Source: Chitinophaga pinensis | Lineage (GTDB): Bacteria; Bacteroidota; Bacteroidia; Chitinophagales; Chitinophagaceae | Direction of reading: 5' to 3' | NCBI GenBank assembly: GCA_945878115.1 | Contig: CAMDVD010000002.1 | Coordinates: 1 to 64,000, forward strand | DNA: 64,000 nucleotides | Shown here: in pieces, positions 11,194-29,393 of the stretch | How the letters are laid out: each line of letters starts with the position of its first letter | Numbering within the stretch: the stretch's first letter is position 1 | Program-made: the position numbers and the translations under genes | The notes under the pieces: generated by a model | Database searches by the model: none | Seen by the model: only the letters and a program-made list of their open reading frames with translations | What the model was told of the DNA's origin: nothing

Positions 11194-11201
11194 TATCTTT
11201 G
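11194..11201 (+). promoter_or_regulatory. Putative -7 promoter element of the Rrf2 gene
   Basis: TATCTTTG matches TAnnTTTG and lies 18 bp before the ATG at 11220 and 13 bp after the inverted repeat. The -33 box is not convincing, which would fit an activator-dependent or repressed promoter. Confidence 0.45.
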
Positions 11202-11219
11202 TGTCAAGAAATCATAAAA

Positions 11220-11654
11220 ATGTTCTCAAAGTCCTGCGAATACGCTATTAAAGCAAGCATCTTCATCGCACAAAAGCGAGAAGGTGTTCAATGCGTAAGA
11301 GTAAAGGAAATTGCAAAAGGCATAAATGCGCCTGAACATTTTGTAGCAAAAATTTTACAAGAATTAAGTCGAAAAAAGGTAATTAGTTCAATGAAAGGTC
11401 CGAATGGAGGATTCTGTATGAATGAAGCTCAAATAAATAAACCAGTTCTTGATATTGTGCTCTTAATAGACGGGGATGGGATATTAAATAATTGTGTATT
11501 AGGATTGGAGCATTGCAGTAGTAGTAATCCTTGTCCTATGCATCTCGAATATCAAAAAATAAAATTAAGCATAAAAAATATGTTGGAGAAGAACACAATT
11601 CGGGATTTCAACAATTTATTAGTTGCGAAAAAAGCAGTACTATTTACGAATTAA
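11220..11654 (+). CDS. Rrf2-family transcriptional regulator with three Fe-S-type cysteines (NsrR/IscR-like)
   Basis: 144 residues from ATG 11220 (an in-frame TTG at 11199 overlaps the promoter and is unlikely). An N-terminal winged helix-turn-helix (about 1-65) is followed by C92-x6-C99-x5-C105, the three-cysteine arrangement that holds an Fe-S cluster in IscR and NsrR. NsrR senses NO through this cluster. Because this gene opens a nir/nor cluster, NO sensing is the likely role. IscR-type Fe-S homeostasis is less likely given the neighbours. The spacing C-x6-C is one residue longer than in classical IscR. Confidence 0.82.
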   Translation: MFSKSCEYAIKASIFIAQKREGVQCVRVKEIAKGINAPEHFVAKILQELSRKKVISSMKGPNGGFCMNEAQINKPVLDIVLLIDGDGILNNCVLGLEHCSSSNPCPMHLEYQKIKLSIKNMLEKNTIRDFNNLLVAKKAVLFTN

Positions 11655-13018: not shown

Positions 13019-14452
13019 ATGTACACAAAACAATTCAAATTTTTAGCCCTAGTTGTCCTCATTGGACTTTTTACCGTCAGTTGTAAAAACAATTCTAGCA
13101 CGAGTGCATCTTCTAATGGACTTGAAGAAATTAAAGGAGAAGAAGTAGCCGTTTTAACTGAAGCACCAAATGTACCACCACCTATTACAAGAAATTATGC
13201 CACAAAGGTTATTGTAAATCTTGAAGTAATTGAAAAGGAAATGGAAATGATGGATGGCGTAAGATATAATTTCTGGACTTTTGGCGGAAGTGTACCTGGC
13301 CGATTTATTCGTATTCGTCAGGGCGATTTTGTAGAATTTCATTTGAAAAATAATCCAAATAACAAATTGCCACACAATATTGATTTACATGCTGTTTCAG
13401 GTCAAGGGGGTGGTGCTGCAGCAACTTTTACTGCTCCAGGTCATGAAACTCAATTTTCATTTACAGCCATGAATACAGGTTTGTTTATATACCATTGTGC
13501 TACAGCTCCTGTAGGTATGCATATTGGAAACGGTATGTATGGTTTGATATTGGTTGAGCCTAAAGGGGGCTTGCCAAAAGTGGATAGAGAATTTTATGTA
13601 TGCCAAGGTGATTTTTATACAAAGGGTACTTATGGAGAAGCTGGATTGCAACAATTCAATATGGATAAAGCATTGAAAGAAGAACCAGACTATGTAGTAT
13701 TTAATGGTAAAGTGGGTTCGCTTACTGGCGATAAATCGTTGAAAGCAAAAGTGGGTGAAACAGTTCGATTGTTTGTAGGAAATGGAGGACCAAACTTAGT
13801 TTCAAGCTTTCATGTCATTGGTGAAATATTTGACAATGTATATCCAGAAGGTGGTACCACATTAAATCACAATGTACAAACTACATTAGTTCCTGCTGGA
13901 GGTTCGGCCATTACAGAATTTAAATGTGATGCTCCTGCCAATTTAATTTTAGTTGACCATTCTATTTTCAGAACATTTAATAAAGGGTCATTGGGTATGT
14001 TGAAAGTGGAAGGTGCTGAGAACAAATCAATATATACAGGTCAGCAAGATGATAGAATTTACCAAGCAGAAGGTGCTGCTCAAACTATGCCTGATGTGCC
14101 GGTAGTAGCATTAAAACCTTTAACCAAAGATGAAAAAATAACACAGGGGAAAGCAATTTTTGCAAGTTCTTGTCAGGCGTGTCATCAAGCCGATGGTAAA
14201 GGAATTGAGAAGGCATTTCCACCATTAGCTGGTTCCGATTATTTCGCTTCTAACCCTTCGTTAGTTACTAGAAATATTATACATGGACTTTCTGGAAAAA
14301 TTACAGTGAATGGTAAAGTTTATGATGGCGTTATGCCAAAACAAACTTTGAGTGATGCACAAATAGCTTCTGTTGCAACGTATGTATTAAATAGCTTTGG
14401 TAATAAAGGCGGTGAGGTAACAGCCATTGATGTTGCTAAACAAAGAAAGTAA
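13019..14452 (+). CDS. nirK: Copper nitrite reductase NirK with C-terminal cytochrome c domain
   Basis: Reduces nitrite to NO in the periplasm. It is a lipoprotein (lipobox FTVSC, C22). Two cupredoxin domains carry the type-1 copper ligands H119, C160, H168 and M173 and the type-2 ligands H124, H159 and H314. The active-site Asp (D122) and His (H265) are also present. Residues about 370-470 form a fused class-I cytochrome c with CQACH at C385-H389, so this is a three-domain enzyme of the Ralstonia type that can take electrons directly. The heme domain closely resembles the stand-alone cytochrome at 16356-16826. Confidence 0.95.
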
Positions 14453-14453
14453 A

Positions 14454-15224
14454 ATGCATAAAATTCTCACTATATTTTCGTTATTCATCAACCTGTTGGC
14501 AACTGGTCAAGGTCAGCCATCTATGGTTAATATAAAGGGAGGAATCTTCCTTCCTTTATATTCTTTAGATAGTCAAAAAACAATTGTGCAACCCTTTTTA
14601 ATGGATGTATTTCCTGTTACAAATGAAGATTATAAAAAATTCATTTTACAAAATCTAGCTTGGAGCAAATCAAAAATAAAATCTATTTATGCTGATACAA
14701 ACTACCTGCATCAATGGAATACCGACACCTCATTTAATGAAAACATTGCGTTGAGCCCAGTTGTAAATGTTTCATGGTTTGCCGCAAAAAAATATTGTGA
14801 ATGTCAAGGGAAAAGATTGCCAACAGTTGCCGAATGGGAATTGGCAGGAAGAGCAAGTGAAACAAAACCAGATGCTTCTAAAGACTTGAAATTTAACCAA
14901 TGGATTTTAAATTGGGTTTCAAAAACGAACCCTAAAATATTACATCATGTGGGTTCCACCTTTAAAAATTTTTATGGTGTTTGGGATTTACATGGCTTGG
15001 TTTGGGAATGGACATTTGATTTTAATAGTGCATTAACTACTGGCGAATCACGAGGGAATAGTGGATTAGATAATACATTTTTTTGCGGTGGAGGATCATT
15101 TGCTTCAAAGGATATTAATAACTATGCTGCATTTATGCGTTTCGCTTCTAGGTCAAGTGTGAAGGCTAAATATGGCGTTCCTAATGTAGGATTTAGATGT
15201 GTAAAAAATAAAATTCACTCATGA
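14454..15224 (+). CDS. nirV: NirV-like SUMF1/FGE-domain protein
   Basis: 256 residues from ATG 14454, directly after the nirK stop. A TTG at 14427 would overlap nirK and is less likely. A signal peptide is present. The domain is that of formylglycine-generating enzymes and SUMF1 proteins: MDVFPVTNEDYKKF, SPVVNVSWFAAKKYCECQGKRLPTVAEWE split over two segments, WEWTFDF, and a C-terminal NVGFRC. NirV, a SUMF1-type protein, is known next to nirK in other denitrifiers and its exact function is unclear. I see no paired catalytic cysteines of the FGE type, so it is probably not a sulfatase activator. Confidence 0.8.
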   Translation: MHKILTIFSLFINLLATGQGQPSMVNIKGGIFLPLYSLDSQKTIVQPFLMDVFPVTNEDYKKFILQNLAWSKSKIKSIYADTNYLHQWNTDTSFNENIALSPVVNVSWFAAKKYCECQGKRLPTVAEWELAGRASETKPDASKDLKFNQWILNWVSKTNPKILHHVGSTFKNFYGVWDLHGLVWEWTFDFNSALTTGESRGNSGLDNTFFCGGGSFASKDINNYAAFMRFASRSSVKAKYGVPNVGFRCVKNKIHS

Positions 15225-15697
15225 GTTTATTTGGCATCATACGAAATATTCATGTACTGTCTGCTTCTATTTGGTTGGGTATGGTAGTGGTTATGAATTA
15301 TGGATTAATGCCATCTGTGGCAAAAAAAATAACTCAGTTAGACGTTGACATTTTGAAACCGATTTTTAAAAATGTGACAAATCTTGTTTCATTAAGTGCG
15401 GCATCAACATTTATTACTGGAGGAATAATTATTTGGATACAAACTGAATTTTATTTTTTAGGAATGTTAAATAGTACAAGGGGGACACTCATCTTGATAG
15501 CAGGAAGTGTAGGGTTTTTAGTCACCATTTTTCATTTTTTTGCGGAAACTAAAGTAGAGAATTATTTAAGAAGTAGGTCGCACAATAATGACGAATTATT
15601 AGTGGGCTATAAAGGAATTGAGTTCATTCCTAAAATTGGATTAGTTGTTGTTTCAGCGATTTTTATCACGATGTTAATCGCTGTTAGAGGATATTAA
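15221..15697 (+). CDS. Four-helix inner-membrane protein (CopD-like pattern)
   Basis: 158 residues with four hydrophobic segments (about 8-28, 50-72, 86-106 and 137-157) and no signal peptide. The opening RNIHVLSASIWLGM resembles the HxxxxxxWxG start of CopD-type membrane proteins that bind haem or copper. It overlaps the nirV stop by 4 bp (ATGA), so translation is coupled. Being between nirV and sco, a role in copper or electron supply to NirK is plausible but unproven. Confidence 0.55.
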   Translation: MSLFGIIRNIHVLSASIWLGMVVVMNYGLMPSVAKKITQLDVDILKPIFKNVTNLVSLSAASTFITGGIIIWIQTEFYFLGMLNSTRGTLILIAGSVGFLVTIFHFFAETKVENYLRSRSHNNDELLVGYKGIEFIPKIGLVVVSAIFITMLIAVRGY

Positions 15698-15708
15698 ATT
15701 AAAATAAA

Positions 15709-16329
15709 ATGAAAAATATATTAACCATAATCACACTTAGCATTACCGTTCTGTTCTTTTTTTCATGTAAGGAAAATAAAGAAAGTGAATGTTGTAAAAA
15801 AGATAAAAACAAAACTGAAGTCGGTACCAAATTGGATAATACAAACGAATCCATTTTTAATTTAGAAAGTAAATGGGTGAGGCAAAATAAAGACAGCATG
15901 TTGTTACGTGATCTGTCAAATAAAATTACAGTAGCAGCAATGGTGTTTACGCATTGCGAATCAGCATGTCCTAGAATAGTAGCCGACCTACAACGAATTG
16001 AAAAAGCTTTTACAAAGGAAGAATTACAAAATATTCAATTCTTGTTAATCAGTATGGATCCTGTAAGAGATACACCAGAAAGATTTGCAGAATTTTCAAA
16101 GGAACTTCAATTGAATGATCATTGGATTTGCATTTCATCTAACAATGATGCAACGATGGAAATTGCAAATGTATTGAATGTAAGAATTAAACCTTTATCT
16201 GGTGGAGGCTTTGATCATTCCAATACTATTCACCTAATAGATAAAAATGGAAATATTGCTTTTCAACAAAATGGATTAGCACAAGAACCAACTGAAATAA
16301 TAGAAAAAATAAAAACTTTAATCAAATAA
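15709..16329 (+). CDS. Sco1/SenC-family copper chaperone lipoprotein
   Basis: A thioredoxin-fold protein delivering copper to periplasmic copper enzymes. The lipobox ends FFFSC (C20). The copper-binding motif C83-ESA-C87 and the distal His H170 (GGGFDHSN) are intact, and MDPVRDTPERF is the typical Sco signature. Its place between nirK/nirV and the nor genes suggests it loads NirK rather than a Cu-A oxidase. An extra cysteine pair, ECC at 27-29, lies in the linker. Confidence 0.9.
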   Translation: MKNILTIITLSITVLFFFSCKENKESECCKKDKNKTEVGTKLDNTNESIFNLESKWVRQNKDSMLLRDLSNKITVAAMVFTHCESACPRIVADLQRIEKAFTKEELQNIQFLLISMDPVRDTPERFAEFSKELQLNDHWICISSNNDATMEIANVLNVRIKPLSGGGFDHSNTIHLIDKNGNIAFQQNGLAQEPTEIIEKIKTLIK

Positions 16330-16355: not shown

Positions 16356-16826
16356 ATGAAAAATTTTAAATTACTAGCGATAGCTACATTCACAACAACA
16401 ACTTTTTTATTCTCTTGCGGGGGCGATGAAAAAAAGGAAACACCAGCCACTGCTGAAACGCCAAAATCAATGTTGGAAGATGCACCAACGGGCAAGGATG
16501 CTAAAATTGCAGCAGGTAAGGCAGTCTATGAAAAAGTCTGTCAAGCATGTCATCAAGCAGATGGCAAGGGTTTGCCAGCTACTTTTCCACCATTGGCCGA
16601 GTCTGATTATTTAGCAGCTGATTTGCCTCGAGCTATTGGCGGTGTAGTAAATGGATTGACTGGCGAAATAACTGTAAATGGAGCAAAATTTAATCAAGCA
16701 ATGCCGAAAGCTACTTTGTCAGATGATGAAGTCGCGGCAGCGTTCACTTATGTTCTTAATAATTTTGGAAATAAGGGTGGCGAAGTAAATGAGGAAGACG
16801 TTAAGGCTGTAAAAAAAATAGAATAG
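16356..16826 (+). CDS. c-type cytochrome lipoprotein
   Basis: 156 residues, lipobox FLFSC (C21), then a charged linker and one class-I cytochrome c domain with CQACH (C62-H66) and a candidate axial Met in QAMPKATLSD. It is strikingly similar to the fused heme domain of NirK, sharing [19 protein letters not shown] and NFGNKGGEV, so one probably arose from the other. It may carry electrons from quinol-oxidising complexes to NirK or NorCB. Confidence 0.9.
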   Translation: MKNFKLLAIATFTTTTFLFSCGGDEKKETPATAETPKSMLEDAPTGKDAKIAAGKAVYEKVCQACHQADGKGLPATFPPLAESDYLAADLPRAIGGVVNGLTGEITVNGAKFNQAMPKATLSDDEVAAAFTYVLNNFGNKGGEVNEEDVKAVKKIE

Positions 16827-16903: not shown

Positions 16904-17329
16904 ATGCTATCAAAATCACAAGCCAAAGTATTTTTCCTAGGAGGTACCATTGTCACTTTTGCTATATTCCTAGGCTTGTCTTGGAATTCATTAAGTAATG
17001 AAGTTCCTAAAAGAACACATGAAGAAAATCTTACCCCACAAGTAATTGCAGGTAAACACATTTGGGAGAAAAATAACTGTATGGGGTGCCATACCATTTT
17101 AGGTGAAGGCGCGTATTATGCACCAGAGCTTACTAAAGTTTACGAACGAAGAGGTGAAGCCTATATAAAAGCAGCCTTAATGAGCAAAACACCTTGGGCT
17201 CCAAGAGGTCGGCAAATGGTAGCTTATGCATTGTCCGAACAAGAGGCCAATGATGTAGTTGCCTTTTTGAAATGGATAGGAAATGTGGACTTAAATGGAT
17301 TCCCACCAAAACCAGACTTGAAGAAATAA
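16904..17329 (+). CDS. norC: Nitric oxide reductase subunit C (membrane-anchored cytochrome c)
   Basis: The electron-entry subunit of cNOR. One N-terminal membrane anchor (about 8-27) is followed by CMGCH (C59-H63) in the NorC context NNCMGCHTILGEGAYYAPEL. Candidate axial ligand is M105 (RGRQMVAYA). 141 residues is normal for NorC. NorB follows after 28 bp. Confidence 0.95.
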   Translation: MLSKSQAKVFFLGGTIVTFAIFLGLSWNSLSNEVPKRTHEENLTPQVIAGKHIWEKNNCMGCHTILGEGAYYAPELTKVYERRGEAYIKAALMSKTPWAPRGRQMVAYALSEQEANDVVAFLKWIGNVDLNGFPPKPDLKK

Positions 17330-17357: not shown

Positions 17358-18698
17358 ATGAAATATAAATCACAAAAAGTAGCGTATTGGTTTTTTGCAT
17401 TATCCATGTTGCTTCTTTCTCTTCAAATTATTTATGGTTTTATTATGGCATTTGCTCACATGGGATATGATGTGTTGCACCAAATTACGCCATTCAATAC
17501 TGCTCGTGCAGTGCATACCAACTTATTGGTTGTTTGGTTATTATCTGGCTTTATGGGAGCTGCTTATTATATCATTCCTGAAGAAGCTGAGCATGAATTG
17601 GTCAGTGTAAAATTAGCTTATATCCAACTTATTACATTAGCGATAGTAGGTGTAGTAGCCATTGTTGGTTATCATTTCAATTATTGGGAAGGGAGAAAGT
17701 TCTTAGAAATTCCGAGACCATTAGACTGGTTAGTTGTTGTCAATGTGTTGACTTTTTTAGGAATCATTTTAATGACTTTGTTCAAAGGTAAAAAACGCAC
17801 TACTACCTCACTTGTTTTAACAATGGGACTTGTATTTGCTGCATTACTTTATTTGCCAGGCATGATATGGTTTGATAATCAGACAATGGATTCATTTTTT
17901 CGTTGGTGGGTAGTTCACTTATGGGTTGAAGGTGTTTGGGAATTAATTATGGGTGGCATACTTGCATTTCTCTTAATAAAGATTACAGGCGTCGATAGAG
18001 AAGTTATTGAAAAATGGTTGTATGTAATTGTGGGTTTAACTTTTATCTCCGGAATTTTAGGAACTGGACATCATTACTATTACATTGGTGTAGGAAAAGC
18101 TTGGCTAATTATTGGTGGAATATTTTCTGCACTAGAACCTTTAGCCTTTTTAGGCATGGCATTATTTGCCATTGCCATGTATCGAAAAGGAGAGAAAAAA
18201 CATCCAAATAAAATAGCATTAAGTTGGACTTTAGGCACTGCCATTGTTTCTTTTGTTGGTGCAGGCTTTTTGGGTTTAGCGCATACTTTACCAGGCGTAA
18301 ATATGTATACTCATGGAACATTAGTTACGGCAATGCATGGACACTTGGCATTTTGGGGCGCCTATGGAATGATTGTTTTAGCCTTTATAAGCTACTCACT
18401 TCCTAATTTAACAGGACGTAAATACTATGATACCATTACTGGTTTATTGGCTTTTTGGTTATCTAATATTGGTATGATAGGCATGACTGTGGCATTTGGT
18501 GTGGCAGGGGTTGCACAAGTATATTTAGAACGAAAAGTGGGTTTGGAATTTGGTGAGGTTCAAAAAGAAATTCAAGTCCATTTTGTTGTGTTAGCGATAT
18601 GTGCCACGTTTTTTACGACTGGGATTGTTTGCTATATCTATGAGTTTGTAAAGTATGGCACACCAAATGATGAAGCACTTGAAACAATTAAGAATTAG
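17358..18698 (+). CDS. norB: Nitric oxide reductase subunit B (canonical cNOR)
   Basis: A heme-copper-superfamily enzyme reducing 2 NO to N2O. 446 residues and 12 membrane helices. All ligands are present: low-spin heme b H53 and H329, heme b3 H327, and FeB ligands H187, H238 and H239 plus the active-site glutamate E191 (motif VVHLWVEGVWE, so E195 is kept too). The Glu-rich EGRKFLEIPRP loop corresponds to the calcium-site region. This is therefore a standard cNOR and a good reference for the divergent copy at 22437. Confidence 0.96.
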   Translation: MKYKSQKVAYWFFALSMLLLSLQIIYGFIMAFAHMGYDVLHQITPFNTARAVHTNLLVVWLLSGFMGAAYYIIPEEAEHELVSVKLAYIQLITLAIVGVVAIVGYHFNYWEGRKFLEIPRPLDWLVVVNVLTFLGIILMTLFKGKKRTTTSLVLTMGLVFAALLYLPGMIWFDNQTMDSFFRWWVVHLWVEGVWELIMGGILAFLLIKITGVDREVIEKWLYVIVGLTFISGILGTGHHYYYIGVGKAWLIIGGIFSALEPLAFLGMALFAIAMYRKGEKKHPNKIALSWTLGTAIVSFVGAGFLGLAHTLPGVNMYTHGTLVTAMHGHLAFWGAYGMIVLAFISYSLPNLTGRKYYDTITGLLAFWLSNIGMIGMTVAFGVAGVAQVYLERKVGLEFGEVQKEIQVHFVVLAICATFFTTGIVCYIYEFVKYGTPNDEALETIKN

Positions 18699-18722: not shown

Positions 18723-19451
18723 ATGAATATAGATCAGGAATTAAAAATAGCAGATGTCGTGAGTAATAATATCAAAACAGCCGACATCTTTAAAAAATAC
18801 GGAATAGATTTTTGTTGCGGTGGTGGTATTTCTATTGCCAAAGCTTGTGAGAAAAAAAATGTAAGTATTGAGCAATTGTTGAGTGAATTAAAAGGCATGG
18901 ATAATAGAATCATACCATCACAAAATTTCAACAAATGGGAATTAGATTTTTTGATAGATTACATAGTATATACGCATCATGCTTATATATTAGAAGCAAT
19001 CGAATTATTAGATACTTATTCTGCTAAAGTGGCAAAAGTACATGGCGCAAACCATCCACCTGTTTTGGAAATTGAACGTTTATACAACCTTGTTAAGATT
19101 GAACTTTTACAACATATGCAAAAGGAAGAACGCATATTGTTTCCGCATATTAAAGAGTTGGTAAAATCAAAAAAAGAAAATTTGCCATTAATTAATTCAC
19201 ATGTTGCATCGGTTCAAAATCCGATCAATAGGATGCAAGCGGAGCATGAAATGGTTGGAAATACTTTGAAAGAAATTGCAAATCTCACGATGAATTATAC
19301 ACCGCCAGAATGGGCATGTAATACATTCAAAGCCTTGTATGCAAAATTAGATGAGTTTGAGCAAGACCTCCATCTGCATGTACATTTAGAAAACAATATT
19401 TTATTTCCCAAAGCAATAGAATTAGAAAATAGTTTGTCAATTATTAATTAA
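18723..19451 (+). CDS. ric: Iron-sulfur cluster repair di-iron protein (Ric/ScdA/DnrN/YtfE)
   Basis: Repairs NO- or oxidant-damaged iron-sulfur clusters. The N-terminal ScdA domain shows GIDFCCGGG (C31-C32). A hemerythrin-like domain follows with conserved His/Glu residues in YTHHAYI, HANHP-like GANHPP, HMQKEERILFPH, EHEMVG and HVHLENNILFPK. The length (242) is normal. Placement between norB and norQ fits a nitrosative-stress role in the same operon. Confidence 0.93.
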   Translation: MNIDQELKIADVVSNNIKTADIFKKYGIDFCCGGGISIAKACEKKNVSIEQLLSELKGMDNRIIPSQNFNKWELDFLIDYIVYTHHAYILEAIELLDTYSAKVAKVHGANHPPVLEIERLYNLVKIELLQHMQKEERILFPHIKELVKSKKENLPLINSHVASVQNPINRMQAEHEMVGNTLKEIANLTMNYTPPEWACNTFKALYAKLDEFEQDLHLHVHLENNILFPKAIELENSLSIIN

Positions 19452-19457
19452 AAAATT

Positions 19458-20258
19458 ATGGAAATGATCATGGAAGAAATTGAAATTAGTAGTCCATTTT
19501 ACTATGCAGTAGGCAAGGAAGTTGAAGTTTTCGAACAAGTTTATCAAAACAAATTGCCTCTATTATTGAAAGGTCCAACAGGTAGTGGGAAATCACGATT
19601 TGTGGAATTCATGGCACATCAATTAGGTAAAAAATTAAGCACTATTAGTTGTCATGAAGAAACATCCTCTACCGATTTAATAGGTAGGTTTATCATCAAA
19701 GGTGCTGAAACGATTTGGTTGGATGGCCCATTAACGACAGCTGTAAAAAATGGTTATATTTTATATTTAGATGAAGTGGCAGAGGCTCGTCCAGATGTCA
19801 TTGTAGCCATTCATTCATTGACCGATCATCGCAGAGAATTATTTATTGACAAACTAGGTGAAACCTATAAGGCACATGATGATTTTATGCTCGTTGGTTC
19901 TTTTAATCCTGGGTATCAACGAGGGTTTAAGGAGTTGAAACCATCTACTCGCCAACGTTTCGTTGCATTGTCATTTAATTTTCCAGAACCAAAAATCGAA
20001 CAAGAAATTTTAGTACAAGAGACAGGCATTGATGATGTTATGGCGAAGAAATTAGTCTCGCTAAGTAATAAGGTAAGGAACTTAACAGAGTTAGGTTTAA
20101 CAGAAACAGTCTCTACTCGTTTGCTAGTAGATGCTGCTAAGTTGATACAAAGCGGGCTTGCAAAAAGATTAGCGGTGAAAGTAGCTGTAATGGAGCCATT
20201 ATCTGATGAAAAACAAACACTGGAAGCTTTGTATGATTTAACTGATTTGATGATATAA
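19458..20258 (+). CDS. norQ: NorQ, MoxR-type AAA+ ATPase for NOR maturation
   Basis: 266 residues, starting MEMIMEEIE (ATG 19458; a second in-frame ATG lies 12 bp later). Walker A GPTGSGKS at 39-46 and Walker B ILYLDEVAEA at 101-110, with the CbbQ/NorQ signature HEETSSTDLIGR. NorQ works with NorD to insert the non-heme metal into NorB. NorD begins 5 bp downstream. Confidence 0.93.
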   Translation: MEMIMEEIEISSPFYYAVGKEVEVFEQVYQNKLPLLLKGPTGSGKSRFVEFMAHQLGKKLSTISCHEETSSTDLIGRFIIKGAETIWLDGPLTTAVKNGYILYLDEVAEARPDVIVAIHSLTDHRRELFIDKLGETYKAHDDFMLVGSFNPGYQRGFKELKPSTRQRFVALSFNFPEPKIEQEILVQETGIDDVMAKKLVSLSNKVRNLTELGLTETVSTRLLVDAAKLIQSGLAKRLAVKVAVMEPLSDEKQTLEALYDLTDLMI

Positions 20259-20263
20259 TTCGT

Positions 20264-22024
20264 ATGGCATTAGATGAATATTTATATGGGAAAATTGCAA
20301 ATTATTTTAAGAAAAGAAATAATATCTCCACGCATATAAAGGAGAAAACAGTTTTACTGCAGGATATACAACATCGTTTAACCATTTTAGCAAGGGCATT
20401 AACAGGCGATGCTATTGAAGTATTTCCTGCTGAAAGAGAAGGAGGATTTAAAAATAATAATTTCTTTTTTCCAGCTTCTTTTTCTTTGTTTGAAACAGGT
20501 GAACAAAATTTGTCCTATTACTTTTTCCGACTTTTATATTTATCTGTTCAAAAAGAATTAAAGTTGAATTGGTTTGATGACACCGAAATTGAATTGAAAG
20601 AAGCGCAACAAAAAGCATTTGAAACATCTTCATTGGTCTTAGAAAAGCTATTTATACATTATCCAATTACAAAACAATTATTCCATGAATTTGAAGTTCA
20701 ATTACAACGAATTTCTTCTGAAAAAAATCCCGTAGATTATAGTTGGTTGTTTGGGAAATGGATGCGAACGAATGTTAATATGGAAAACAAATATCCGCTC
20801 GAACATTTTTCAGAACAAGTAAAAAAAAGCCAGAACGAGCAAACTAAAACAGTTGTCATGTCGAAGGCAATTGAAAATATTGTACTTATAGAAGTTGATA
20901 AAAAACAACAAGAAGACTATGTAATGACACATAATTTTGAGAAGGTGGAAACTGCCGATGAACACAACGGCGTATGGCGTGATTTTGATGGAGAAGATGA
21001 ATTAGAAGATCATCAGGAAGCACTGGACGAATTGAATATGAAATTTGTAATTCGAGTGGATGATACAGCACATTCTATTTACCATGCTGAATTTACAGAA
21101 AATACCAATATATCGGAAAGTGGAACTTTAACGTATGCCAATTTTCATTATTCGTATAACGAATGGGATTTTTCAAAAAATGAATACAAAGAAAATTATT
21201 GCAAAGTGTATCCAATTGTCCAGCCCACTTCTGATAATGTCTATTACCTAAAAACTATCAAAGACCATTCTAACACTTTACAAGGTCTAAGAAAAATGTT
21301 GACTTCTGTAAACAATAAAATGCAACAAGTACGAAAGCAAACAGATGGCGATGAGTTTGAATTGGATGCATTAAGTGATATGTATGTGGATATTCATGCT
21401 AGGCGAACACCGAATGAAAATATTTATTTATCGAAGCGAAAAAAAGAAAAAGATATTTCCATTTTATTGTTGTTAGATATTAGTTTGTCAAGTGATGGAT
21501 ATGCAGATGGTAATAGAGTTATTGACGTAGAAAAACAAGTTAGTATTTTGTTTGGCGAAATACTGGATGAGTATAATATTGACTTTTCTGTGAACGGGTT
21601 TTATTCTAAAACGAGAAATTTTTCGAGCTATGTTTCCTTAAAAGAATTTGATGAAAAATGGAGCCAAACAAAATATAAAATTGGTGCTATTGAACCCAGT
21701 GGATATACTAGAATTGGTGCGGCTTTGCGACACTCCGGATATTTATTGAATAAAAGACAAACTAAAAATAAATGGGTTATTCTTTTGTCAGATGGCAAAC
21801 CCAATGACTATGATAAATATGAAGGGAAATACGGAATTCTCGATGTTAAGCAAGCCTTGCATGAATTGAAAGTAAATAACATCAACGCGTTTGCATTGGC
21901 CATTGAAGCACAAGCAAAATATTATTTGCCACAAATGTTTGGACAAAATCATTATCAAATATTAACCACTCCAGTGGAGCTATTAAAGTCCTTGGTGAAA
22001 TTGTATGAGAAAATAAAATATTGA
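20264..22024 (+). CDS. norD: NorD, von Willebrand factor A protein for NOR maturation
   Basis: 586 residues. The C-terminal vWA domain contains the MIDAS motif DISLS at 405-409 and the later ILLSDGKPNDYD. The long N-terminal region with an acidic patch near residues 240-256 (DFDGEDELEDH) is typical of NorD/CbbO. The NorQ-NorD pair activates NorB by placing FeB. It ends 3 bp before the second norC-like gene, so the second NOR may use the same maturation machinery. Confidence 0.92.
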   Translation: MALDEYLYGKIANYFKKRNNISTHIKEKTVLLQDIQHRLTILARALTGDAIEVFPAEREGGFKNNNFFFPASFSLFETGEQNLSYYFFRLLYLSVQKELKLNWFDDTEIELKEAQQKAFETSSLVLEKLFIHYPITKQLFHEFEVQLQRISSEKNPVDYSWLFGKWMRTNVNMENKYPLEHFSEQVKKSQNEQTKTVVMSKAIENIVLIEVDKKQQEDYVMTHNFEKVETADEHNGVWRDFDGEDELEDHQEALDELNMKFVIRVDDTAHSIYHAEFTENTNISESGTLTYANFHYSYNEWDFSKNEYKENYCKVYPIVQPTSDNVYYLKTIKDHSNTLQGLRKMLTSVNNKMQQVRKQTDGDEFELDALSDMYVDIHARRTPNENIYLSKRKKEKDISILLLLDISLSSDGYADGNRVIDVEKQVSILFGEILDEYNIDFSVNGFYSKTRNFSSYVSLKEFDEKWSQTKYKIGAIEPSGYTRIGAALRHSGYLLNKRQTKNKWVILLSDGKPNDYDKYEGKYGILDVKQALHELKVNNINAFALAIEAQAKYYLPQMFGQNHYQILTTPVELLKSLVKLYEKIKY

Positions 22025-22027
22025 AAT

Positions 22028-22447
22028 ATGATAATCAAGCCCATTCGCATTTTCCTAATTTTATGCTTACTATTTTTAAGTTACTCTTATTGCATTTACT
22101 TCAAACCCATATCAATAAAAAGCACCTCAAATTTCAATATACATAAAGCATCTGCAGGAAGATTAGTTTGGCAAAAATACAATTGTCAAAGTTGCCATCA
22201 ATTATACAGCTTAGGTGGTTATTTAGGTCCTGATTTAACGAATATTATTTCTCAACCAAATAAAGGCGAAGTATTTATCAAGGCAATGCTTGTTTCGGGA
22301 ATTAAACAAATGCCCTCCTTTCATTTATCTCTAAATGAAATGAACTTGTTACTCGAATTTTTAAAGTCAGTAGATGCAAGTGGTAGTTCAGATCCAAGAA
22401 AATGGAAAGTTAATACGATTGGAATGATAGAAAAAAATGAAAATTGA
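22028..22447 (+). CDS. Second NorC-like membrane-anchored cytochrome c
   Basis: 139 residues with one N-terminal anchor (about 6-24) and CQSCH (C53-H57) followed by LGGYLGPDLTN, a NorC-type loop. Candidate axial Met is M95 (KQMPSF). It lies 3 bp after norD and overlaps the second norB-like gene by 11 bp, so the two should be made together. It is clearly divergent from the NorC at 16904. Its partner has an altered active site, so its role is electron delivery to an enzyme of uncertain reaction. Confidence 0.87.
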   Translation: MIIKPIRIFLILCLLFLSYSYCIYFKPISIKSTSNFNIHKASAGRLVWQKYNCQSCHQLYSLGGYLGPDLTNIISQPNKGEVFIKAMLVSGIKQMPSFHLSLNEMNLLLEFLKSVDASGSSDPRKWKVNTIGMIEKNEN

Positions 22448-23774
22448 AAAAATACATATTGTAAAATTGTTTTTGATCACAGCACTAATAGCGTTAGTTC
22501 TTGGTTTGTTTTTTGGATTATTTGCATCTCTAACTTATGTCATACCTGATTTTTTAAAACAACAAATTGGATTTCAATCTTTGCGTCCATTGCATGTATC
22601 CTTAGTCATGTATTGGATACTATTAGGCGCTACAGGGTGCGTTTATTATGGATTATCTTCTACATCAAATGCTACAATTAAAAAGTTGGCAATATTGCAG
22701 TATGCATTATGGATGCTTGCGATTGTAGGCGTTTGCATATCCTATTTTACGCAGAATTTTGGCGGAAGGGAATATTGGGAGTTTAATCCTATATGGGCTT
22801 TGCCTGTTGCCATTGCTTGGGTTCTATTTTTAATTAACTTTTTTACTATAGTTGCTCATATTAAAAATTGGCCTGTGTATATGTGGATGTGGATGACAGG
22901 TATTTTATTTTTTCTATTTGCATTTGTCGAAAATTACCTTTGGCTATTTCCTTATTTTCGTGAACATTTTATCCGAGATATGACTATTCAATGGAAGGTA
23001 AATGGATCCTTAGTAGGAGCTTGGAATCAACTACTGTATGGCACTGCGTTTTATTTAATGGATAAGATTTCTGGCAAAAAGGATACTGGTACTAACAAAC
23101 TTGCCTTTGCCATGTATTTTTTAGGGTTATTTAATTTAATGTTCAATTGGGGGCATCATATTTACACATTGCCTTCAGATATTTATATTAAATATGTGGG
23201 TTATGCAGTGAGTATGACGGAGTGGGTATTTTTTGTAAAAATAATTTGCAATTGGAAATCTAATATAAGCACAATTCAAAAATACTATCATTATTTCCCA
23301 TATCGGTTTTTAATGGCTGCAGATATTTGGGTATTTATTAATATGGGACAAGCTATTTTAATGTCTATTCCGGCAATCAATATTTATACGCATGGTACAC
23401 ATATTACGGTAGCGCATGCTATGGGAACTACGATAGGAATTAATAGCATGATTCTGTTAGCAGCATGTTTTATGTTTATAAAATTCCCAAAAGAAGAAGC
23501 AACAAAAAAAATGTTGAACAGCCTATTTTGGATATTGCAAATCAGTTTAACTCTATTTTGGTTGGCATTAAATGGCGCAGGAATTAAAAAAGGAATTTGG
23601 CAATTAAGTCTTTATCAAAGTAATTTTTCAAGCATGATGGATTCTTTAAAACCTTATTTTATTGTTTTTGTATTAGCAGGCTTTGGCATTTTAATTTCAT
23701 TAGTATGGATAGCGATTTTCTTAATAAAAAAAGCACTCATAAATGAAACGAATTCTAAACAAAAATACACTTGA
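22437..23774 (+). CDS. Divergent NorB-like heme-copper protein with altered metal-B site
   Basis: 445 residues, about 12 membrane helices, alignable without large gaps to the NorB at 17358. It retains H53 (low-spin haem), H240 and H241 (metal B) and H327 (haem b3). It differs at N189 (metal-B His in NorB), V193 (active-site Glu), N197 (second Glu) and M329 (second low-spin haem His). An extra His, H322, lies in YTHGTHITVAHAM. The fold and NorC partner say it is a NOR-family oxidoreductase. A His-to-Asn change at metal B is, as I recall, also reported for NO dismutases and for some recently proposed NOR families. The reaction cannot be decided from sequence alone. Confidence 0.85.
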   Translation: MKIEKIHIVKLFLITALIALVLGLFFGLFASLTYVIPDFLKQQIGFQSLRPLHVSLVMYWILLGATGCVYYGLSSTSNATIKKLAILQYALWMLAIVGVCISYFTQNFGGREYWEFNPIWALPVAIAWVLFLINFFTIVAHIKNWPVYMWMWMTGILFFLFAFVENYLWLFPYFREHFIRDMTIQWKVNGSLVGAWNQLLYGTAFYLMDKISGKKDTGTNKLAFAMYFLGLFNLMFNWGHHIYTLPSDIYIKYVGYAVSMTEWVFFVKIICNWKSNISTIQKYYHYFPYRFLMAADIWVFINMGQAILMSIPAINIYTHGTHITVAHAMGTTIGINSMILLAACFMFIKFPKEEATKKMLNSLFWILQISLTLFWLALNGAGIKKGIWQLSLYQSNFSSMMDSLKPYFIVFVLAGFGILISLVWIAIFLIKKALINETNSKQKYT

Positions 23775-24004: not shown

Positions 24005-24454
24005 ATGAAAAACACAAAAATGATTGCCGCCATGCTTGCTTCCATGCTCATGCTCTTAACTTGTTTTGTAGCAAGTAATTCTTTTGCTCAAACCAAAAAA
24101 CATTCTTCCATGATGAAAGATTGTTGTATGATGAAAGAAGGGAAAATGATGTGTATGAAAAAAGGCAAAATGATGCCGATGAAACACGATATGACCATGG
24201 AAAATGGAACTAAGTGCATGACCAATGGAGAGTGCATTATGAAAAACGGTGAAAAAATGCAAATGACCGAGGGTCAATGCATGGACATGAAAGGTAAAAT
24301 GGATATGTGTGATAAGATGAATAAGAATGAAAAGCATGAAAACACAGATAAGGATATGGTGATGACCTACACTTGCCCTATGCATCCAGAAATCATAAGA
24401 AACAAACCTGGGAAATGCCCGAAATGTGGAATGAAGTTGATAGAGAAGAAATAA
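24005..24454 (+). CDS. Met/Cys-rich exported metal-binding protein with C-terminal heavy-metal-binding domain
   Basis: 149 residues: signal peptide to about residue 29 (NSFAQ), then a Met-, Lys- and Cys-rich middle with repeated M-x-NG-x-C/x-M and MxxMK clusters resembling DUF6799, and a terminal YTCPMHPEI...CPKCGMKL domain at about 121-147. The same domain occurs twice in the neighbouring CopA. It probably binds copper or other soft metals in the periplasm or outer-membrane face. About 230 bp without a gene separate it from the nor cluster. Confidence 0.75.
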   Translation: MKNTKMIAAMLASMLMLLTCFVASNSFAQTKKHSSMMKDCCMMKEGKMMCMKKGKMMPMKHDMTMENGTKCMTNGECIMKNGEKMQMTEGQCMDMKGKMDMCDKMNKNEKHENTDKDMVMTYTCPMHPEIIRNKPGKCPKCGMKLIEKK

Positions 24455-24580
24455 ACTTTATCTTACTGATTATAGATGAATATTTTTAAAATGGTGTGGT
24501 GACTTTGCTCATCACACTTTTTATTTCGTAACTTGTTTTTTTATCTACTTACAGAAATATAATTGAAAACTAAATCAACA

Positions 24581-27115
24581 ATGACACATACATATCAAAT
24601 TACCGGAATGAGTTGTAACGGTTGTCGTTCAAAAGTGGAAAAGGCTTTGAACGAAGTGGTAGGGATTTCTGCCATCGTTACATTAGATCCGCCTATTGCA
24701 ATCATCACTATGGAGAAACAAGTTGGTATAGAAGATTTGCAACATGCCTTAGATTCTGCAGGCAAGTATAAAATCGAAATGGATAATCAAGTTCATTCTT
24801 CAGATAAAAAAATAGGTACAGAAGAAAATAAATCAGCTTTGTCACCTAATCCTACAAAATCAGAATCAGATTCAATTGTCAAAAATAGCGGAGGTAAATA
24901 TTATTGCCCTATGCACTGTGAAGGCGATAAAATTTACGAGAAAGCTGGTAGTTGTCCAGTGTGTGGCATGCATTTAGAAAAGGTCCCTGAATTGTCCTTG
25001 AATTCGATTTCTTACACTTGTCCAATGCATCCAGAAATAATGAAGGATGCACCTGGCACTTGCCCAATTTGTGGAATGAACTTAGTTCCAACAGAACCTA
25101 CGGATGGGGAAGAAAATAAAGTATATAAAGAGCTGGTACAAAAAATGAAAGTTGCTTTAATTTTTACCGTTCCGATATTTTTAATCGCCATGTTGGAAAT
25201 GATGCCAGACAATCCTCTTCAAAAAATAATGGGAATTATATGGTGGAATTGCTTACAATTCATTCTAACTTTACCGGTCGTTTTTTATGCTTGTTGGATG
25301 TTTTTTGTGCGTGCTTTTAAATCCATCATTACATGGAATCTCAACATGTTTACTCTCATCGGAATCGGGACTGGCGTATCCTTTGTGTTTAGTTTAATTG
25401 GAATGGTTTTTCCCGCCATTTTTCCTAATGAATTCAAAACAGAAAGCGGCACTGTATTTCTCTATTTTGAAGCAACAACCGTAATTTTAACCCTAGTTTT
25501 ATTGGGTCAATTATTGGAAGCAAGAGCGCATAGTCGAACAAGCGGAGCTATTAAGGAGTTATTAAAACTTGCCCCAACAGAGGCTACATTGGTGATGGAT
25601 GGAGAGGATAAAGTAATTTCTATTCACGATATAAAGAAAGGAGATTTATTACGAGTCAAACCTGGTGATAAAATTCCGGTGGATGGTAAAATAAGCAATG
25701 GCGAAAGCAGTATAGATGAATCCATGATTACTGGCGAGCCGATTCCTGTCGATAAAAAAATGGGTGATGCAGTAATAGCCGGAACAATCAATGGCAACAA
25801 ATCATTTGTTATGATAGCCGAAAAAGTAGGTTCAGAAACTTTGCTATCTCAAATTGTTCAGATGGTAAATAATGCTAGTCGTTCTAGAGCTCCTATTCAA
25901 AAATTAGCAGACAGTATCGCCAAATATTTTGTGCCAATTGTTGTCCTTATTTCTGTCACTACATTTTTTGTTTGGGCGAAATTTGGCCCTGAGCCAACAC
26001 TTGTGTATGGTTTTATAAACGCAATTGCTGTATTAATCATTGCCTGTCCTTGTGCTTTGGGATTGGCTACTCCTATGTCGGTTATGGTGGGAGTAGGCAA
26101 AGGAGCGCAGTCGGGTGTTTTGATAAAAAATGCGGAAGCATTAGAAAATATGAACAAAATAAATGTTCTCATAACCGATAAAACCGGAACCATTACCGAA
26201 GGAAAACCTTCCGTCGAAAAGATATATTCAGCACAAAATGAAGAGAATGCATTACTACAAAATATCGCTTCATTAAATCAATTTAGCGAACATCCATTAG
26301 CAGAAGCAGTTGTCAAGTATGCAAAATCAAAAAGTATTTCATGGCTAGATGTAAAAGATTTTGAAGCCATTGCAGGCAAAGGTGTAATAGGAACTGTTGA
26401 TCATAAAAAAGTTGCTCTTGGAAATAAGAAATTAATGGAGCAAGTTGGGGCAACTATTTCTGCTGATATTGAAACTAAAATTATAACCGAACAGAAACTT
26501 GGTAAAACAGTTTCCTACATTTCCATAGAAGATCATGTTTTAGGTTTTATATCCATTTCAGATGCGATAAAAGAAACAAGTAAAGAAGCCATTAAAGAAC
26601 TAATGAAACAAGGGGTGGAAGTGATCATGCTTACAGGAGATAATGAAAATACTGCAAAGGCTGTAGCAGAAGAATTGCATTTGAGTTCGTATAAAGCTGG
26701 ATGTTTACCAGAAGATAAACTCAATGAAATTAAGCAATTACAATCTCAAGGTAAGATTGTAGCAATGGCAGGTGATGGAATAAATGATGCACCAGCATTA
26801 GCCCAAGCGGATATAGGAATAGCAATGGGCACGGGCACTGATGTAGCCATTGAAAGCGCCAAAATCACATTAGTAAAAGGAGATTTGCAAGGAATAGTAA
26901 AAGCCAAGAAATTAAGCCATGCAGTCATGAGAAACATCAAACAGAATTTATTTTTCGCATTCTTCTATAATGTGTTAGGTGTTCCAATTGCGGCAGGGGT
27001 TTTATATCCATTTTTTGGCATATTGCTTTCCCCAATGATAGCTGCGTTGGCTATGAGTTTTAGTTCGGTGTCTGTTATTTCAAATGCATTAAGATTAAGA
27101 AGCGTTCAATTGTAG
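24581..27115 (+). CDS. copA: Copper-exporting P1B-type ATPase CopA
   Basis: Pumps Cu(I) across the inner membrane. 844 residues from ATG 24581 (an in-frame TTG at 24563 is unlikely). The N-terminal HMA domain has GMSCNGC (C12, C15). Two heavy-metal-binding domains (about 107-134 and 144-170) carry CPMH...CPxCGM. Then come the A-domain TGEP, the CPC motif C489-P-C491 in TM6, DKTGT at D533, SEHPLAEA and GDGINDAP. It is a complete, typical Bacteroidota CopA, upstream of and probably co-transcribed with the multicopper oxidase. Confidence 0.95.
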
Positions 27116-27137: not shown

Positions 27138-29393
27138 ATGAATACATTTCGGAAATTGAGATCACTATTGATTAAAATTGTAAAAGCAATTTTTATACAT
27201 AAAAAATCGTGTTGTAAAATAGTAGTTTTATTTCTATTGACACACAATGCAGTTGCTCAAAAAATAGTTCATTACGATTTATACGTAAAAGATACCATCG
27301 TTAATTTTACAGGAAAAGAAAAACATGCTATTGCTGTAAACGGACAAATACCAATGCCTACGCTTACATTTACGGAAGGAGACACAGCAGAAATTGTAGT
27401 GCGTAATGAATTGAAAGAAACTACCTCCTTGCATTGGCATGGTTTATTTTTACCAAACAAAGAAGATGGCGTTCCTTATGTAACGCAAATGCCAATTAAG
27501 CCTCACACAACTTATACATATCGCTTTCCTATACTTCAACATGGCACACATTGGTATCACAGTCATTCAGGATTGCAAGAACAAATTGGCATGTACGGTT
27601 TGTTTATTATGAATAAAAAAGTGGAGGATAAATCTTGTAGAAAAGGGATTGATGATTTGCAAACAATACCCATCATTTTAAGTGAATGGACGGATATGAA
27701 ACCAGACAATGTCCATCGCCTTTTGCACAATGCAACAGATTGGTTTGCCATTAAAAAAGGAACAACACAGAGCTATTCAGAAGCAATTAAAGCAGGAGAG
27801 CTAAAAACAAAAATAAAGAACGAATGGAAGCGAATGTTAGCCATGGATGTGAGTGATGTTTATTATAATAAATTTTTACTCAATGGAAGTAGCGGGCAAC
27901 AATTTTCACAATGTAAAGCAGGCGATAAAGTTCGATTAAGAATTGCTAATGGAGGTACGTCAACTTATTTTTGGCTAAACTATGCTGGCGGAAAAATGAC
28001 AATAGTAGCCAATGATGGTAACGATGTTGAACCTGTGGAGGTGGATAGATTACTGGTTGCAGTTTCTGAAACATATGACGTAGTGGTAACGATTCCTCGA
28101 GATAGTATAGCTTATGAATTTCTAGCTACATCCGAAGATCGTGCAAATTCAACTTCCATTTATTTGGGTCAAGGAATAAAAAAGTTAGCAACCCATTTGT
28201 CTAAATTGAAATATTTTGAGGGGATGAAAATGATGAATGATATGATGAAAATGAATGGAAGTTTAGATGATATGGGTATGCATATGAGCCTAAATCAGAT
28301 GGATATGAATGTGGTGATGTATCCCGAAATTACTGGAGAAATTCGACAGTCAAATGTTGGAAGTGATTCGCTTCCAGACATCACAACTTTGAATTATTCC
28401 ATGCTTAAATCCACTACGAAAACGACACTGCCGCAGGAGGCGCAAGTAAGAGAATTTCATTTTGAACTAACTGGAAATATGAATCGATATGTTTGGAGTC
28501 TGAATAATAAAGTACTTTCTGAAACGGATAAAATACGAATTCACCAAGGAGAAAATGTTCGGATAACTATTTACAATGGTTCTATGATGCGTCACCCGAT
28601 GCACTTGCATGGTCACGATTTTAGGTTATTGAATGGACAAGGAGATTTTGCACCATTGAAAAATATTGTAGACATTATGCCAATGGAAACTGATACATTA
28701 GAATTCAATGCCAATGCGCAAGGAGACTGGTTTTTTCATTGTCATATATTGTATCACATGATGAGTGGAATGGGTAGAGTTTTTACATACCAAAATCAAG
28801 CTCCTAATCCTGAAATACCCGACCCTAAATTAGCTAAGCGAAAACTATTTGCTGATGATAGAAGGTTTCACATTATGTTTGATAATGATATAGCCAATAA
28901 TGGGAATGATGGAATGGCAATGTTGCAAAACACACGATGGAGTATTGGCACAGAATGGCGGCTCGGCTATCATGCCAAACATGGATACGAAACCGAAACG
29001 CATGTCGGAAGATACATTGGCAAAATGCAGTGGCTAATGCCGTTTGTTGGTTTTGATGGACGTTACCGAAAAATGGGTATTGATGAACAAGATAAAACAA
29101 TTTTCGGTTTTAGTAATACAAAAGATATTAGAATGCTTTTTAGTATTGGGGTAGATTACACATTGCCTTTGCTCTTCATTATTCAAGGAGAAGTTTATCA
29201 TAATGGAAGTTTTAGAATTCAATTGATGCGAGATGATATTCCTGTTTCAAAAAGAATACGAATGGGAGTAATGATAAATACAGATAAAGAATACATGGCA
29301 GAACTTAGATATATACTTGGTAAAAATGTTGGTGTTCGTATGCACTACGATAGTGATATGGGTTTAGGGTTTGGCGTAAGAATTAATTATTAA
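27138..29393 (+). CDS. Multicopper oxidase fused to a C-terminal outer-membrane barrel-like domain
   Basis: The first 560 residues are a CopA/PcoA-type periplasmic multicopper oxidase with all four His-rich motifs: LHWHG (H99, H101), HWYHSH (H138, H141, H143), HPMHLHGHDF (H486, H489, H491) and HCHILYHMMSGM (H534, H536, H540, M545). A Met-rich loop near residues 365-395 is typical of cuprous oxidases. After about residue 570 the sequence turns into alternating beta-strands ending in a terminal aromatic residue (GVRINY), resembling PcoB/CopB. It seems to combine the PcoA and PcoB roles in one polypeptide. The N-terminus is long before the signal hydrophobic core. Confidence 0.85.
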   Translation: MNTFRKLRSLLIKIVKAIFIHKKSCCKIVVLFLLTHNAVAQKIVHYDLYVKDTIVNFTGKEKHAIAVNGQIPMPTLTFTEGDTAEIVVRNELKETTSLHWHGLFLPNKEDGVPYVTQMPIKPHTTYTYRFPILQHGTHWYHSHSGLQEQIGMYGLFIMNKKVEDKSCRKGIDDLQTIPIILSEWTDMKPDNVHRLLHNATDWFAIKKGTTQSYSEAIKAGELKTKIKNEWKRMLAMDVSDVYYNKFLLNGSSGQQFSQCKAGDKVRLRIANGGTSTYFWLNYAGGKMTIVANDGNDVEPVEVDRLLVAVSETYDVVVTIPRDSIAYEFLATSEDRANSTSIYLGQGIKKLATHLSKLKYFEGMKMMNDMMKMNGSLDDMGMHMSLNQMDMNVVMYPEITGEIRQSNVGSDSLPDITTLNYSMLKSTTKTTLPQEAQVREFHFELTGNMNRYVWSLNNKVLSETDKIRIHQGENVRITIYNGSMMRHPMHLHGHDFRLLNGQGDFAPLKNIVDIMPMETDTLEFNANAQGDWFFHCHILYHMMSGMGRVFTYQNQAPNPEIPDPKLAKRKLFADDRRFHIMFDNDIANNGNDGMAMLQNTRWSIGTEWRLGYHAKHGYETETHVGRYIGKMQWLMPFVGFDGRYRKMGIDEQDKTIFGFSNTKDIRMLFSIGVDYTLPLLFIIQGEVYHNGSFRIQLMRDDIPVSKRIRMGVMINTDKEYMAELRYILGKNVGVRMHYDSDMGLGFGVRINY

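Follow-up and report, generated by a model that had tools for sequence, protein, structure and literature searches.

What does a NorB-like protein do that has lost two of the conserved histidines of its superfamily? This question is raised by a gene pair in the DNA analysed here, a stretch of 64,000 nucleotides from Chitinophaga pinensis (contig CAMDVD010000002.1, positions 1 to 64,000), which we call the window. The gene norB2 (22437..23774, + strand) encodes a 445-aa membrane protein with the COX1 fold. Its start overlaps the 3' end of norC2 (22028..22447, + strand), encoding a 139-aa monohaem cytochrome c with a hydrophobic N-terminus (seen by eye). An earlier note, made from the sequence alone, had considered for NorB2 a variant nitric oxide (NO) reductase, an NO dismutase-like enzyme or an NO/O2-interacting enzyme of another kind; the 445-aa frame was confirmed by open reading frame (ORF) calling. 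Our own reading is a tentative one, to which we give slightly less than even confidence: NorC2-NorB2 may represent a distinct third lineage of C-type heme-copper proteins, neither cNOR nor cbb3 oxidase, which is fed by cytochrome c, has a rebuilt or metal-free distal site and likely consumes NO.

NorB2 matches the Pfam family COX1 (PF00115) with 121 bits (cut-off 34.8, E 6e-35) and shares 22% identity with the canonical NorB of the window in a pairwise MAFFT alignment. This canonical cNOR subunit (17358..18698, + strand) is encoded in the same gene run, does not belong to the NorC2B2 enzyme and served as comparison protein. In the pairwise alignment His53, His240/His241 and His327 are retained, and His329 of NorB stands opposite Met329. 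Relatives were collected from 99 genomes (the genome of the window and 98 related ones), 18 of which contain the NorB2 family (E <1e-100), and by searching GTDB species genomes for peptide patterns derived from the family, where tblastn confirmed 525 stretches (E up to 1e-3). All locus counts given below rest on the best 80 of these 525 stretches. The 98 aligned family rows correspond to 94 distinct rows, since four duplicate the same contigs; one row ends early. Alignment A4 comprises 74 of the 98 rows, with other close relatives thinned and four rows omitted: L016 (contains X), L076 (cut by the contig end) and L073 and L089 (where an antisense ORF had passed the ORF filter instead).

The low-spin haem ligand His53 (codon 22593..22595, + strand) is kept in 94/94 distinct rows. 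The same applies to each of the remaining metal-B histidines on helix VII, His240 and His241 (23154..23159, + strand), and the proximal ligand of haem b3, His327 (23415..23417, + strand), is present in 93/93 rows with data. Met329 (23421..23423, + strand) is Met in all 93 rows with data; the equivalent position is His in 9/9 cNOR, 5/5 qNOR-type and 4/4 CcoN rows. Helix VI (positions 184-206) contains no His in any of the 94 distinct rows. In terms of the histidine sextet, described in a passage of PMC3413370 as the signature of heme-copper oxidases, NorB2 keeps four of six residues and lacks the helix VI His and one low-spin His. Of the metal-B site just His240/His241 are left, and the sequences predict a low-spin haem ligated by the pair His53/Met329, in line with the earlier note. 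A further family-specific residue is His322 (23400..23402, + strand) at the start of helix X, with 91 His, 2 Gln and 1 gap among the 94 distinct rows.

These changes are specific and do not reflect decay. Compared with a 96% identical relative (L003), norB2 shows a nonsynonymous rate (dN) of 0.020 at a synonymous rate (dS) of 0.106, indicating purifying selection. The family has a mean pairwise identity of 0.52 (minimum 0.35) and 43 invariant columns in 98 rows, including the polar residues Asn197, Asn233, Glu165 and Glu262, the last kept in 98/98 rows. A pseudogene is ruled out by dN/dS, the invariant columns and the ligand conservation. Glu115 in the GR(E/K)xxE motif, which we take to be a calcium ligand next to the haem propionates, is kept in 96/98 rows and suggests that both haems are still present. 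In these respects the earlier note was right: the codons at 23001 (Asn189) and 23421 (Met329) read as it had given them, the haem b3 and helix VII ligands are retained, the low-spin His329 is replaced by Met, and both the helices (AlphaFold2 model) and the partner cytochrome (haem ligands in 78/78 sequences) are preserved.

The same note had matched His187, Glu191 and Glu195 of NorB with Asn189, Val193 and Asn197 of NorB2. The loss of the His stands (94/94), but the residue matches are insecure because the alignments disagree. Two residues, encoded at 23001..23006 (+ strand), are candidate equivalents of the helix VI metal-B His. A register with His187 opposite Asn189 is given by the pairwise MAFFT alignment of NorB2 with NorB and by hhalign against six cNORs; MAFFT of 98 family, 7 NorB and 4 CcoN rows is split, aligning the His of NorB with position 189 and that of CcoN with 190. 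Three MAFFT modes applied to the family with 9 cNOR, 5 qNOR-type and 4 CcoN rows place the ligand at Gly190, leaving Glu191 opposite a gap of one residue and Asn197, as in the other register, opposite Glu195. The Gly190 register is also found with hhalign against CcoN and, at low posterior values, with HMMER against the cNORs of the PDB. In 9/9 cNOR, 5/5 qNOR-type and 3/4 CcoN rows a Trp precedes the ligand His by four residues. It corresponds to Trp186, present in 98/98 family rows, and hence points to Gly190 as the ligand position. Gly190 is invariant (94/94), whereas position 189 varies among the 94 distinct rows (73 Asn, 17 Tyr, 3 Leu, 1 Ser). As judged from the sequences, the helix VI metal-B ligand is certainly lost in the NorB2 family; it was probably replaced by glycine (Gly190) and not by Asn189, and the supposed His-to-Asn189 replacement is probably a one-residue alignment shift.

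The AlphaFold2 model of NorB2 (pLDDT 89.9, pTM 0.91) places the protein in the heme-copper superfamily, with fold scores of about Z 40 in addition to the PF00115 match. It is most similar to the cbb3 subunit CcoN (3mk7: Z 41.1, 2.6 Å, 432 residues aligned), followed by the cNORs 4xyd (Z 39.7, 415 aligned) and 3o0r (Z 38.5, 412 aligned). Trees were built with cNOR, qNOR-type and CcoN rows for comparison. Two of them, with 48 and 40 rows, recover the family as a single clade (100/99), and the unrooted split separates {cNOR, qNOR} from {family, CcoN} (100/99 in both), so that the family stands apart from cNOR and qNOR and beside CcoN. A third tree, in which qNOR is missing (35 rows), shows three groups and is uninformative on this split. 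The incomplete L023 is not among the 9 cNOR rows of the trees, and the long-branched ccoN_L026 was dropped after the first tree. A placement in the cNOR clade was not obtained with these 9 cNOR rows in the unrooted trees, which carry long-branch warnings. That the NorB2 family does not lie inside cNOR is all that the trees suggest.

With the cNORs (NorCB; 3o0r, 4xyd) NorB2 shares the fold (Z 38.5-39.7), the operon-paired cytochrome c, His53, His240, His241 and His327, as well as Glu115, the THGT motif and, in one of two alignments, Glu262. It differs from them in the loss of the helix VI His and of the Glu at the ligand position, in the exchange of His329 for Met, in the NorD docking acids, which are not kept, in the lack of NorD in genomes containing only NorB2 and in its separate clade. 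The combination of three FeB His with the helix VI Glu typical of cNOR is not found. Canonical cNOR membership is ruled out by tree, ligands and NorD distribution. With cbb3 CcoN (3mk7, 8smr) NorB2 shares the top fold score (Z 41), a Q-W pair at the start of helix VI, the neighbourhood in the tree and Asn336 (in 3/4 CcoN rows), but it lacks the helix VI CuB His, carries Met instead of the low-spin His and has a monohaem NorC-like partner. Its score with the ccoN model TIGR00780 is 55.9 bits, compared to a cut-off of 583. No CcoO or CcoP was recognised among the recurrent neighbour clusters, which were named only in part. From eNOR, sNOR, gNOR, nNOR and bNOR, which are also non-canonical or proposed NO reductase families, NorB2 is set apart, by their descriptions only, as a C-type protein according to its sequence matches and fold; a statement in PMC11388526 assigns nNOR, eNOR, sNOR and gNOR to the B family.

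In 77/80 loci norB2 has a norC2 gene at a distance of at most 60 bp. Of the three other loci, L075 and L089 probably lost it to the ORF filter and L077 starts near the contig end. In the window protein and 77 homologues the CxxCH motif and Met95 are fully conserved (78/78 each).

For the maturation of cNOR, PMC9976466 describes that FeB cannot be inserted without NorQ and NorD, that cNOR produced without norQDEF is fully hemylated, contains no FeB and is inactive, and that D220/E222 of NorB from Paracoccus denitrificans are the proposed docking site of NorD. By motif we equated these acids with D213/E215 of the window NorB. They are Asp/Glu in 9/9 cNOR rows, whereas only 11 and 1, respectively, of the 98 family rows are acidic at these positions. 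Of the 99 genomes, 10 encode a canonical NorB (76-100% identity), and NorD (E up to 1e-20), the one of the two maturation proteins searched across genomes, occurs in the same 10. Four of the 18 genomes containing NorB2 possess canonical NorB and NorD, and 14 possess neither. Because NorD is absent from these 14 genomes and the docking acids are lost, NorB2 probably matures without NorQD, and the advice of the earlier note to express it with NorQ and NorD does not agree with this distribution (NorD in 0/14). Maturation without NorQD would be expected if FeB is absent. As qNOR also matures without NorQD (PMC9976466), the absence of NorD supports, but does not prove, a metal-free NorB2. The NorQ of the window (MoxR AAA+; 19458..20258, + strand; Pfam CbbQ_C, AAA_5), an FeB-insertion chaperone of cNOR, probably serves the canonical NorB and not NorB2.

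In the proposed lineage, which would be kept by facultatively anaerobic Bacteroidota, periplasmic donors would reduce the haem c of NorC2, from which electrons would reach the His/Met low-spin haem b and then haem b3 on His327. The His/Met haem b is expected to have a higher potential than a bis-His haem, and His322 would lie on the Met329 face near the edge of the low-spin haem, as suggested by helix geometry. Small or polar residues would line the distal pocket together with His240/His241. This pocket would be metal-free or hold a weakly bound two-His metal, and hence could be made without NorQD. Haem b3 might then reductively consume NO in anoxia, either by scavenging or by slow turnover of NO to N2O; this step is weaker than the preceding ones, and NO consumption would belong to a set of genes for anaerobic life. 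NO appears to be the likeliest substrate on the circumstantial grounds of the NOR-like fold, the neighbouring Rrf2 and RIC genes and the window's own nor operon. More broadly, NorB2 may be a heme-copper enzyme without non-haem metal, with a haem-only site, a His/Met haem and a cytochrome c donor, reducing NO or another acceptor as an anaerobic counterpart of a terminal oxidase in many Bacteroidota; we consider this possible, with confidence clearly below even.

The gene neighbourhoods are in accordance with an anaerobic role. Lyases of the tyrosine phenol-lyase/tryptophanase (TPL/TnaA) type were found in 51/80 loci (within 5 kb in 48/80), Rrf2-type regulators in 37/80 (31/80 within 5 kb) and F604, a protein of about 604 aa without Pfam or NCBIfam match, in 34/80 (16/80 within 5 kb). 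NadA (named by eye) occurs in 30/80 loci and NadB in 29/80 (within 5 kb in 16/80 and 22/80, respectively), an example of the latter scoring 447.9 bits, just below the cut-off of 452.75. Further neighbours are proline dehydrogenase (24/80, all 24 within 5 kb), a PTPS/QueD-like protein (22/80, within 5 kb 18/80; by eye), the anaerobic ribonucleotide reductase NrdDG (14/80, within 5 kb 7/80; by eye) and an ADP-forming-type acyl-CoA ligase (13/80, all 13 within 5 kb). NorQ and NorD matches were found in 3/80 loci each and NirK in 2/80. As the neighbours of the family mostly belong to an anaerobic gene set, its home in a nirK-nor operon in the window is unusual.

The same picture was obtained at the genome level. 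F604 is present in 15/18 family genomes (one being a 48-residue piece at a contig end) compared to 9/81 others (Fisher p 3.6e-9), and by genus in 9/11 with the family compared to 8/68 (p 5e-6). For TPL/TnaA the values are 16/18 and 16/81 (p 5e-8), and by genus 9/11 and 13/68. For nosZ they are 11/18 and 23/81 (p 0.013), and for cNOR 4/18 and 6/81 (p 0.08). The NorB2 family tracks an anaerobic amino-acid/fatty-acid gene set more than denitrification.

Concerning these neighbours, one locus (L044:6769-9570) contains tandem tryptophanase-type and tyrosine phenol-lyase genes immediately upstream of norC2B2, and TPL/TnaA-type genes occur in 50 more loci. We found no pairing of tyrosine phenol-lyase with nitric oxide reductase in the literature, in which subscription papers were mostly not covered. 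F604 is exemplified by L033:6289-8100 and found in 33 more loci, with six Cys invariant in 29 aligned rows. Its model (pLDDT 83.8) has Helicobacter FabX as top match (Z 25-27) and also resembles PfaD, FabK and nitronate monooxygenase types (Z about 19-25), with Foldseek as a second comparison. According to passages in PMC8626469 and PMC11300592, FabX contains flavin and iron-sulphur, takes part in making unsaturated fatty acids and requires O2 in H. pylori, and a Neisseria homologue is active in anaerobic synthesis with unknown acceptor. From the model, F604 might serve the synthesis of unsaturated fatty acids in Bacteroidota that live anaerobically. In the genome of the window F604 (L149:164-1930, - strand) adjoins a TPL/TnaA-type gene on another contig.

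Several observations weigh against the reading as an NO-consuming third lineage with an altered distal site. The 48- and 40-row trees print long-branch warnings and contain few outgroup rows. The register of helix VI is sequence-based, and pairwise MAFFT, the 98-row MAFFT and hhalign favour position 189 for cNOR. The absence of NorD is no proof of metal absence, since qNOR does without NorQD and cbb3 oxidase is not known to need it. RIC was found in 24/80 loci, but within 5 kb in just 9/80. The co-occurrence tests ignore relatedness, except in the by-genus version. NirK exceeds the cut-off in 4/18 family and 13/81 other genomes (p 0.50), which leaves no link between NorB2 and NirK. NirS was also rejected as NO source. 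Matches to PF02239 exceed the low cut-off of 25.5 in 10/99 genomes (among the family genomes G008, G018, G037 and G069), as short partial matches only; the best stretch reaches 29.6 bits and is not read as NirS. Finally, five simple patterns revealed no FNR-, HcpR- or CRP-like sites upstream of the cluster genes.

One alternative is a divergent but ordinary NO reductase, in which FeB would be held by His240/His241 and new ligands such as Asn197, Lys187 or water, and N2O would be formed. The retained electron-donor cytochrome, the position of the window locus within a nirK-nor run and the enrichment of nosZ mentioned above are consistent with it. Glu262 stands opposite the Glu of 9/9 cNOR in one alignment, but opposite Pro of 7/7 NorB in another. 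Since the helix VI His is gone in 94/94 rows, NorD is found in 0/14 genomes containing only NorB2 and the unrooted trees place the family outside cNOR and qNOR, we regard this as unlikely. A variant NO reductase in the wider sense of the earlier note is possible, though outside cNOR in the trees.

Alternatively it might be that NorB2 is a non-catalytic haem protein, that is, an NO/O2 sensor, an NO trap or an electron relay on an oxidase fold. This would fit the loss of two of six ligands in every member with data, the Rrf2 genes within 5 kb in 31/80 loci and the RIC genes in 24/80. Against it stand the cytochrome c partner with intact ligands (77/80 loci; 78/78 sequences) and the 43 invariant columns including Asn197, Asn233, Glu165 and Glu262. 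Cytochrome pairing and polar invariant columns suggest an enzyme that receives protons and electrons, and a purely non-catalytic role seems improbable.

A reductase of another acceptor, scavenging residual O2 or acting on a small molecule tied to the anaerobic neighbours, would be in keeping with the recurrence of TPL/TnaA, a FabX-like flavoprotein, NadAB and NrdDG, and not of N-oxide genes, around the family, and in a search with NorB 13/18 family genomes showed no cNOR- or qNOR-type gene. However, none of the identified neighbours suggests a specific acceptor and NorB2 lacks an intact two-metal O2 site of the canonical kind, so that we hold this to be very unlikely.

An NO dismutase (Nod) had been suggested in the earlier note because it took a His-to-Asn change at helix VI for a feature of this enzyme. 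According to a passage in PMC10286720, however, the hallmark of Nod lies in helix VII, where Asn replaces the second His (His560), so that the published Asn sits at another position; a Glu-to-Gln change and an inability to take external electrons have been described in addition (PMC3413370). NorB2 has His241 at the equivalent position in 94/94 rows, keeps Glu262 in 98/98 rows where five Nod-type neighbours have Gln (three-mode MAFFT alignment of family, cNOR, qNOR-type and CcoN rows) and is paired with NorC2, the presumed donor with intact haem ligands. If Asn189 reflects a register shift, as is probable, the parallel drawn from this variable position probably falls, too. Nod, putative and qNOR-derived, does resemble NorB2 in the modified metal-B site of a NOR-like protein and is at times encoded nearby, but it loses the second helix-VII His and the Glu, whereas NorB2 keeps both and loses the helix VI His.

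In 5/80 loci a qNOR-type gene with the marks of Nod (SHN, and Gln for Glu) is found within 10 kb, two of these genes being divergent from norC2. They encode single proteins of about 780-826 aa in Saprospiraceae and other Bacteroidota (L061:2457-4871, L067:1287-3767, L080:1090-3432, L102:7185-9533 and L105:1858-4314). The SHN signature was also seen in L115, L116, L117, L145 and L148, the last being the same contig as L105. Among 296 genomes of the phylum of the window, NorB2 (E up to 1e-60) was found in 4 and SHN-type genes in 3 without overlap, the other 24 qNOR-type matches not being typed individually; the link between NorB2 and Nod is therefore local and small. With the substituted His at a different position and both the Glu and the electron donor retained, an NO dismutase is rejected as extremely improbable.

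The set of six His has been regarded as a signature common to oxidases and NO reductases. A large natural family lacking two of them while keeping the fold, four ligands and an electron-transfer partner makes it possible to probe which parts of the two-metal site are required for respiration. Annotation by COX1/NorB similarity could miscount NorB2 genes, with 525 stretches confirmed, as NO reductases or oxidases and thereby affect denitrifier counts, and the neighbourhood points to a common anaerobic toolkit in Bacteroidota. We recognised no published description of the NorB2 family among the literature matches listed, which mostly do not cover subscription papers. The work of Murali et al. 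on new NOR families, which we know through citing works, could include one.

According to NCBI rank, 77 of the best 80 stretches belong to Bacteroidota, 1 to Acidobacteriota and 2 are unranked. The named isolates Flavobacterium antarcticum (L097) and F. proteolyticum (L100) carry the family. The acidobacterial case (L089) is a family member 61% identical to the window NorB2 on an 11.6 kb contig in an Acidobacteriota bin (a Thermoanaerobaculia metagenome-assembled genome), possibly misbinned. A phage origin was rejected, as one viral scan with the window NorB2 yielded zero relatives. A plasmid origin was rejected as well: 233 plasmid records match, all below 60% identity and with 25-26% among the 30 listed, and three retrieved plasmid proteins fall with cNOR in the tree.

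In the window, norC2B2 belongs to a run of genes on the same strand. This run includes an Rrf2-type regulator (11199-11654), a porin-like protein (11702-12985), a SCO1-like protein (15709-16329) and a cytochrome c (16356-16826), all four named by eye from the translation and not by a library match. The NirK-type copper nitrite reductase with a fused cytochrome c domain (13019..14452, + strand) matches TIGR02376 above the cut-off (G000:C2:13148-14053), its CxxCH motif being seen in the translation. An FGE/EgtB-type protein follows (14427-15224), and between it and the SCO1-like gene lies a gene for a 158-aa membrane protein (15221-15697) without Pfam or NCBIfam match. Next to the canonical NorB are encoded the canonical NorC (16904..17329, + strand; ORF call and Pfam) and an RIC/ScdA-type di-iron repair protein (18723..19451, + strand; Pfam ScdA_N and Hemerythrin), of a kind associated with NO stress. 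NorQ is followed by NorD (20264..22024, + strand; Pfam VWA). The genome has no match to the nosZ model TIGR04246, though nirK and norCB are present, and given a complete assembly the organism is possibly an N2O producer. Downstream of norB2 a Met/Lys/Cys-rich protein of 149 aa is encoded (24005-24454), after which come genes resembling those of a copper P-type ATPase (24563-27115) and a multicopper oxidase (27138-29393), with names given by eye.

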